Source: an uncultured Burkholderiales bacterium (lineage in GTDB: Bacteria > Pseudomonadota > Gammaproteobacteria > Burkholderiales > Burkholderiaceae_C). Taken from it: a DNA stretch of 64,000 nucleotides. The notes beneath the pieces were generated by a model. It did no database searches and was not told the DNA's origin. It saw nothing but the letters and a program-made list of their open reading frames with translations. Made by a program: the position numbers and the translations under genes. Location of the stretch: NCBI GenBank assembly GCA_903956845.1, contig CAJBOO010000180.1:1-64000 (forward strand). Direction: 5' to 3'. The stretch's first letter is position 1. Each line of letters begins with the position of its first letter. This document shows positions 54,999 to 56,239 of this stretch, in pieces.

Positions 54999-55021
54999 AC
55001 GGGCTGTTGAGCTCTCGTGCG

Positions 55022-56239
55022 ATGAAACTCTTTGTGGAACAAGCCCTGTTTGAGCCGAGCGCGTCGGCTGCTCAGTCGCGCTTGACGGCAATACGCCCGT
55101 TTGAGTATTCCCAAAGCCGCAACCATCTTGATGGCGCAGTGAGCATGCTCTCGCCTTACCTCACCCATGGTTTTTTGACCGTGCCCGAAGTGGCCGCGCA
55201 TGTCTACAAAGTACACCGCATGAGCGTTCAGCACAAATTTATTTTCGAGCTGGCTTGGCGCGAATACTTCTTGCACGTGCACGACGCCCTGGGCGACGAC
55301 ATCTTCAAGGATTTGCACGAGGGGGTATTGCCTGCCGACGCCTATAGCCAAAGCCTGCCAGACGATGTGCGCGACGGTTCAACCGGTGTGCCCGTCATCG
55401 ATCAGGCGGTGCGGCAGTTGTATTTCAATGGCTACTTGCACAACCATGCCAGGCTGTGGTTGGCCAGTTACTTGGTACACATGCGCAAGGTGCACTGGCG
55501 GGTGGGCGCGGATTGGATGTACAGCCATTTGCTCGATGGCGACATCGCCAGCAACCACCTGAGCTGGCAATGGGTGGCGGGCACTGGCAGCCGCAAGCCG
55601 TATTTGTTCAACGCGGCCAATGTCGCGGTGCATGCCCCTGAGGTGTGGCACAGCCCGAACACCGTGATCGACAAAGACATGGAGATCATCGAAATGATCT
55701 CTCATAGCCAAGCCACCTTCACCCAAAAAACCTCATACCACGTCAAAGTGCACGAACCCGAGTTGCTGGACAAGCCGCCTCCCGAGGCCGACTTGGTGGC
55801 CAGCGGCTTGGCGGCAGACAAGTTGATTGACCGCGATGTGTGGTGGATTCACCCCTGGTCTTTGTCCGAGCAAGCACCCCCCCATCTGCCTGAGGGAGCG
55901 ATGCGTGTGGCGGCTTGCTGGCATGAATGGACACAGGTGCATCCCTGGAACACCGCGCGTTGGCTGTTTGTGGCGCGAGGCATGCACCAGGTGGCTTCGC
56001 ATTGCTGGTTCGAGGACGCGGCACGCTTGACTGACATCTTTAGCAAGGCGCGCACAGTGCATGTGTGGGACCACCGCGCTTTGCCCGACTGGCCTGGCGT
56101 CCATTGGGTGCGCCACCCCGCACCCCGCTTATGGCCCAGACAAGAGGAGCGCAGCCCCTCTTTCTCTCACTGGTGGAGCAAGGTCACGCGCTACAAGCAG
56201 TCCATACCGCAGTTGCTGCGCAACCTGCAAGGCCCTTAG
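55022..56239 (+). CDS. Photolyase-like FAD-binding protein lacking the N-terminal antenna domain
   Basis: A 405-residue protein that starts almost directly with the photolyase FAD-binding helical domain ([19 protein letters not shown]). That domain is complete: [52 protein letters not shown]. True photolyases and cryptochromes have an alpha/beta domain of about 130-200 residues before this point; here it is absent. Instead about 170 residues follow it ([15 protein letters not shown] onward), with no motif I recognise. Function, repair or signalling, is uncertain. It overlaps the convergent glcB by 4 bases. Confidence 0.85.

Follow-up and report, generated by a model that had tools for sequence, protein, structure and literature searches.

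In canonical class I/III CPD photolyases, the antenna domain precedes the FAD-binding domain. A reversed design, with the FAD domain first and a second domain behind it, has already been published for several groups. NewPHL photolyases were reportedly introduced by Emmerich et al. in 2020 (NAR 48:12845), along with a preference for single strands and a proposed use in place of DASH enzymes, and the SPL group is said to go back to Xu et al. in 2021. Fe–S cysteines are present in only some SPLs. The reversed order is in print for the NewPHL/SPL group (PMC13274461 for NewPHL) and for Phr4–Phr5 and Phr6 (PMC9426592), and CPD repair has been attributed in print to inverted relatives. The Fe–S cysteines of Phr4 are given as C169, C254, C257, and C263, four cysteines are attributed to all Phr4 and Phr6 proteins, and Phr7 is assigned a Z-domain (PMC9426592). 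For NewPHL, published accounts describe a conserved FAD-side Asn (PMC12083526) and, in the Dinoroseobacter protein, a Trp dyad (PMC8948257). The SPLs are reported without an N-terminal domain and proposed as the root or ancestors of the photolyase/cryptochrome family (PMC9649867); they are also named as a possible origin of that family (PMC9498864) and listed as a group (PMC9178010).

The gene considered here is a new branch of this published design. It lies in the window, i.e., the whole stretch of 64,000 nucleotides analyzed from an uncultured Burkholderiales bacterium. Like NewPHL, the encoded protein has its FAD domain first and a second domain behind it, and with SPL, Phr4–Phr5, and Phr6 it shares an order in which the FAD domain is followed by a second domain, here probably of photolyase type. 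Based on its sequence and on structural models, we propose that it is a photolyase with inverted domain order that would split UV dimers by light, a reading to which we assign a probability of about 0.75. A literature search, beyond whose reach the two founding papers (NewPHL and SPL) lay, gave no description of this Burkholderiales family, and the accessible parts of the literature joining photolyases with circular permutation concerned optogenetics and cell signaling.

A FAD-first gene and its relatives

The gene is an open frame on the plus strand at positions 55022–56239, with 405 amino acids from an ATG and a stop codon; a second possible start, TTG, lies at 55007. Its parts are the following:

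55022..56239, plus strand: putative FAD-first (inverted) photolyase-type gene, from the open frame and its relatives
55046..55711, plus strand: FAD-binding helical domain, residues ~9–230, from PF03441 at 55238–55624 and the structural similarity of the whole model to FAD domains of photolyases (Z up to 16.4)
55535..55573, plus strand: equivalents of the FAD-contact residues D380/D382/N386, with the putative electron-transfer and lesion-contact Trp, residues 172–184, from alignment in class I photolyase numbering
55712..55831, plus strand: linker, residues ~231–270, modeled by AlphaFold2 largely as coil, with some short elements and a single helix (262–268)
55832..56236, plus strand: C-terminal alpha/beta domain, probably of antenna type, residues ~271–405, from the model, structural re-ranking, and conservation

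Some match to the window protein was found in 126 of the 149 genomes searched, its own included. The family itself is carried by 62 of the 149, again counting its own, with matches that mostly span both domains and a few that are cut or partial (e.g., in G055 and G139). In the remaining genomes with a match, the match is either to canonical photolyases alone or to distant FAD-first proteins. A scan of named genomes, which are partly the same as in the 149-genome search and from which the best 80 loci were kept, includes Limnohabitans sp. Rim11, Leptothrix discophora, Sphaerotilus natans, Herbaspirillum sp. GW103, Rubrivivax rivuli, and Paraburkholderia bannensis among those loci. The family alignment used below has 72 rows, the window protein and 71 relatives, with 8 of 79 family matches left out as falling short of residue 380; a smaller alignment holds the window protein and 44 of the 71.

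Among 398 genomes sampled evenly from the phylum, none of the matches listed was full-length besides that of the genome of origin. Searches of phages and plasmids with the window protein yielded no locus that matched 80% of its length, and no relative was found in viral contigs scanned with a Deinococcus protein.

Family-wide conservation bears on whether the gene is simply a canonical photolyase gene that has been truncated, inactivated, or misassembled. A stop codon does lie inside the matches of a few relatives, and one match is split over two frames, but both domains are found within long open frames in many genomes, and the C-terminal domain is conserved. A fragment or pseudogene is ruled out by conserved length and residues, and we give this explanation as a whole almost no weight.

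The family also includes some unusual members. Four genomes (G021, G039, G042, and G079) each contain two diverged, near full-length copies. Members are also found under records titled Klebsiella pneumoniae MAG (L128) and Planctomycetota MAG (L142), where the names or bins look wrong. At L047:5609-7190 (G139), the FAD domain and the C-terminal domain occupy two overlapping frames, comparable to the way phr4 and phr5 are split in Synechococcus; this layout may instead come from a sequencing error. In Deinococcus sp. QL22, a two-piece match (NZ_CP097153.1, 50345-51441), annotated as a FAD-binding domain protein and a hypothetical protein, is possibly a split FAD-first photolyase.

The FAD-binding domain and its active-site residues

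The sole Pfam domain is FAD_binding_7 (residues 73–201, E 7.9e-27). No alpha/beta domain precedes it among the Pfam and PDB matches, in agreement with the preliminary description, which had reported the N-terminal domain as absent. That description had also called the FAD domain complete from about residue 30 to 230. Its presence is confirmed by the E value above, and its completeness is not, as the match covers profile positions 1–132 of 203 only. In all eight of the other FAD-first proteins scanned, the match ends at profile position 119–145, which suggests that the final third has been shortened or replaced relative to the canonical domain. This unmatched last third sets the window protein apart from canonical class I/III CPD photolyases, with which it shares the FAD domain, the key residues, the predicted fold of the FAD domain, and probably that of the second domain. 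In the PDB, sequence matches to photolyases and cryptochromes stop by residue 202; the only later match is to a dioxygenase (E 0.37).

All four NCBIfam matches are to photolyase or cryptochrome models, each below its own cut-off. The best of them is the DASH profile (TIGR02765), a point of likeness to Cry-DASH. Identity with Cry-DASH was nevertheless rejected given a score of 109.9 bits, far below the cut-off of 317.05, and the FAD-first order, which Cry-DASH does not have.

Active-site residues were mapped through an alignment to the Synechococcus photolyase, with the FAD residues taken from a published list (PMC9426592). E76, W79, R80, N141, R144, W159, D172, D174, N178, W182, and W184 are identical in 72/72 rows, and the FAD-site equivalents L43 and S44 are kept in all 72 and Y29 in 71. 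We take W182 and W159 to be the electron-transfer Trp of class I photolyase and E76, W79, and W184 to lie on the lesion side, with N141 presumably likewise the equivalent of a lesion-contact residue. Class I R350 is replaced by H142 in every row, T240 by V40 in 71 of 72, and W280 by F or L (position 73) in 71 of 72, replacements that indicate lesion and FAD pockets different from those of class I. M353 is replaced by L in 14 rows, the window among these. Residues 82–120 of the window protein contain no Trp, and E. coli W306, which completes the Trp triad of class I, would presumably fall within this interval; this third Trp appears to have no counterpart. The Trp dyad of the Dinoroseobacter NewPHL is similar, a pair without a partner at the presumed W306 place, and NewPHL proteins share the conserved FAD-side Asn.

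The conserved FAD, lesion-side, and electron-transfer residues, together with the missing third Trp, lead to a prediction of light-driven dimer repair over a short electron path. In the proposed mechanism, the N-terminal helical domain would bind FAD, and the protein would bind UV-damaged DNA containing cyclobutane pyrimidine dimers, perhaps with a preference for single strands. Light would reduce the FAD through the two conserved Trp, W182 and W159, and the dimer would be split by electron transfer from FADH-. The C-terminal alpha/beta domain, as the putative counterpart of the canonical N-terminal antenna domain, would probably pack over the FAD site and close it.

A contrasting possibility is a light-sensing or redox flavoprotein, cryptochrome-like in nature, that has lost repair and uses the C-terminal domain as an output module. 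The lesion-side changes would be compatible with such a protein, both R350 to H142 across the family and M353 to L in the rows that include the window, as would the class I-type photolyase already encoded in the same genome on contig C189. On the other hand, W184, E76, and N141, the presumed equivalents of lesion contacts, are identical in 72/72 rows, Pfam shows no output domain, and CPD repair is ascribed to published inverted relatives. We consider a loss of repair unlikely and favor a repair enzyme with inverted domain order.

The C-terminal domain

The whole protein was modeled confidently by AlphaFold2 with 72 sequences (pLDDT 95.0, pTM 0.92), and the top structural matches of the model are photolyase FAD domains, with Z up to 16.4. 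Residues 247–405, the last 159, modeled alone gave a pLDDT of 92.2 and a pTM of 0.82. The C-terminal part had earlier been described as possibly Rossmann-like, and five strands in alpha/beta order are indeed predicted within a conserved domain. Its motifs are an HPW that follows the first strand and two helices, one with RWxFV and one with SFSxWW. W279, W309, R313, W314, and F381 are identical in 72/72 rows, which argues that this domain is under constraint and not drifting.

A comparison of the C-terminal model (247–405) with antenna domains, which the preliminary description had put forward as a check, came out differently at two levels. Foldseek returned no match with an E of 0.001 or lower; its first photolyase, at rank 14 with E 0.14, exceeds all other rows of the 50 shown in probability (0.69). 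In a structural re-ranking, i.e., a re-alignment of the best 1000 Foldseek chains, N-terminal domains of photolyases and cryptochromes account for ranks 1–20 and for 28 of the top 30 rows, and the alignment begins at chain residue 21 or earlier in all of ranks 1–20. The best match is to residues 2–127 of 8ijy (Z 7.5, 2.3 Å over 99 aligned residues). After rank 20 come HldC (Z 5.5, tied with ranks 19–20), a USP domain (5.4), and then eight more photolyases or cryptochromes. A Z of 7.5 is within the range the tool calls typical of models without a clear match and is weak by itself; for this predicted structure, the weight rests on the unbroken block of photolyases and cryptochromes at the top.

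Profile comparisons were set against decoys, 15 shuffled profiles plus the reversed profile for each pair. For the profiles, 3 of 30 canonical rows were dropped from the antenna profile and 1 of 24 from the NewPHL-type C-terminal profile (no anchor motif). With hhalign, the C-terminal domain of the window family met the antenna profile at 0.5% and 4.4%, both out of register, and a global profile alignment of the two was also out of register. Fuller profiles gave the expected register for the window family against the antenna profile (1.6%, score 18.0 vs decoys 13.9), the Deinococcus C-terminal profile (1.6%, 17.9 vs 13.8), and the Persicobacter C-terminal profile (9.7%, 22.6 vs 14.0). The window family scored 12.0 with the NewPHL-type C-terminal profile, less than its decoys (up to 16.2 shuffled, 17.6 reversed). 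There was likewise no signal between the C-terminal profiles of NewPHL-type and Persicobacter proteins (12.9, decoys 14.7) or of Deinococcus and Persicobacter proteins (12.0, decoys 15.9). The antenna profile gave a marginal result with the Persicobacter profile (18.9, decoys 17.9) and a modest one with the NewPHL-type C-terminal profile (20.9, decoys 16.6).

The FAD-first Deinococcus proteins (L052 and L053) appear from these profiles to form a bridge between the window layout and the antenna domain. Their C-terminal domain (two sequences) matches the canonical antenna profile at 96.9% with E 1.8e-10, scoring 67.1 against decoys of at most 19.4, and matches the NewPHL-type C-terminal domain at 60.5%. 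L052 also has a Pfam DNA_photolyase match at E 7e-4, below the family cut-off. The C-terminal domain of the window protein has no Pfam DNA_photolyase match.

Alternatively, the protein may have lost its antenna domain, its FAD domain having been fused to an unrelated Rossmann-like domain that now forms the C-terminal part. A fusion of this type would account for an antenna profile match that is weak and twice out of register, for the missing signal against the NewPHL-type C-terminal profile, and for the modest Z and lack of a significant Foldseek match. It is harder to reconcile with a ranking in which photolyases and cryptochromes hold ranks 1–20 from Z 7.5 and other alpha/beta folds begin at Z 5.5, with the 96.9% antenna match of Deinococcus proteins that have the same layout and belong to the same clade (95/92), or with in-register alignments of the window family to the antenna, Deinococcus, and Persicobacter profiles above all decoys. 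We regard an unrelated fusion as quite improbable. The structural re-ranking favors the earlier suggestion of an antenna-type domain relocated behind the FAD domain, a probable move to which the profiles of the window protein alone point only weakly.

Placement among FAD-first photolyases and genomic setting

A maximum-likelihood tree was built from 80 FAD domains, comprising 50 FAD-first and 30 canonical rows; it contains neither class II nor Fe–S 6-4 photolyases. The window family is represented by the window and 20 relatives, with L001, L043, L047, L159, L161, and rows under 60 bits left out. The N-terminal antenna motif is present in 27 of the 30 canonical rows. All 50 FAD-first rows fall on one side of a 100/98 branch from the canonical rows, on which the root was placed, and the tree is hence silent on which domain order is older. 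Within the FAD-first side, 24 rows treated as NewPHL on the basis of layout and taxonomy rather than published accessions form one clade (100/99). They consist of three named alphaproteobacteria (Ruegeria, Niveispirillum, and Novosphingobium), two members of the window's own order, and 19 others of the phylum. The sister clade (95/92) is made up of Persicobacter, Deinococcus with L162, and the window family, whose 21 rows are supported at 93/71. The FAD domain of the window protein falls in this sister clade and not inside the presumed NewPHL clade. The presumed NewPHL proteins thus differ from it in their separate FAD-domain clade and in C-terminal profiles no more alike than decoys.

Two genomes of the window's own order (G101 and G105) have a NewPHL-type FAD-first protein (L048 and L049) and no window-type match among those listed. 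A NewPHL-type FAD-first protein is also found in a genome of 1.2 Mb (L187, G498).

Four Fe–S cysteines, attributed to all Phr4 and Phr6 proteins, set the SPL and Phr4–Phr6 group apart from the window family. At the place of the first of these, the family has V, A, L, T, or P in 72/72 rows, and residues 205–224 contain no Cys in 65 of the 72 rows and one Cys in seven. By this alignment, the family lacks the four cysteines and is probably cluster-free. Within the window's clade, the Cys layout of Phr4 is equaled by L162 (spacings 85, 3, and 9) and nearly so by Deinococcus (85, 3, and 10). L162 (G164:C1:4066500-4067084) has four Fe–S-type cysteines and terminates a short way past the FAD domain; its frame encodes no second domain.

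The neighbors of the window gene are confirmed as gshA, kup, and gshB upstream and malate synthase G downstream. Of the 16 closest loci (L002–L017), all have gshB next to the gene, and 15 have malate synthase there. The gshA-kup-gshB neighborhood had been taken to suggest an oxidative or osmotic stress context. This did not hold up across the family, and an oxidative-stress operon was dropped, as none of the neighbors tested was seen at 84 of 126 family loci, many stretches being short so that presence is a lower bound. The position of the gene looks inherited and not that of a stress operon.

The same genome has other photolyase genes. The best NCBIfam profile of the class I-type photolyase on C189 is the 8-HDF type, below cut-off, and a third FAD_binding_7 gene on C194 is cut by the contig end; no DASH cryptochrome over cut-off was found in this genome. 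Among 84 genomes of the same genus, three have both the family and DASH, 50 the family only, 11 DASH only, and 20 neither (Fisher p 0.0007). The counts for those at least 90% complete are 2, 24, 10, and 8 in the same order (p 0.0007), and those for all 149 genomes are 3, 59, 14, and 73 (p 0.027), in tests that ignore relatedness. On a gshA tree covering 44 of these 84 same-genus genomes, independent pairs go in the same direction (about 0 vs 3, p about 0.25) and are too few to reach significance. These counts are suggestive of a tendency for the window family and Cry-DASH not to co-occur, which would fit use in place of DASH.

A broader evolutionary reading, offered tentatively and more doubtful than the functional one, is that one rearrangement was ancestral to all FAD-first photolyases. 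The "missing" antenna domain of short photolyases would then be C-terminal and so diverged as to be hardly recognizable, and the window family would be a cluster-free branch with its own HPW/RW/SFS-type domain. The results also suggest that Burkholderiales genes with only a FAD_binding_7 match deserve a better name. If the single rearrangement is true, FAD-first photolyases would be derived and not domain-poor ancestors of the whole family. The window family, along with the Deinococcus proteins, whose antenna-type domain can still be recognized by sequence, provides test material for a moved-domain alternative to the SPL-ancestor view.
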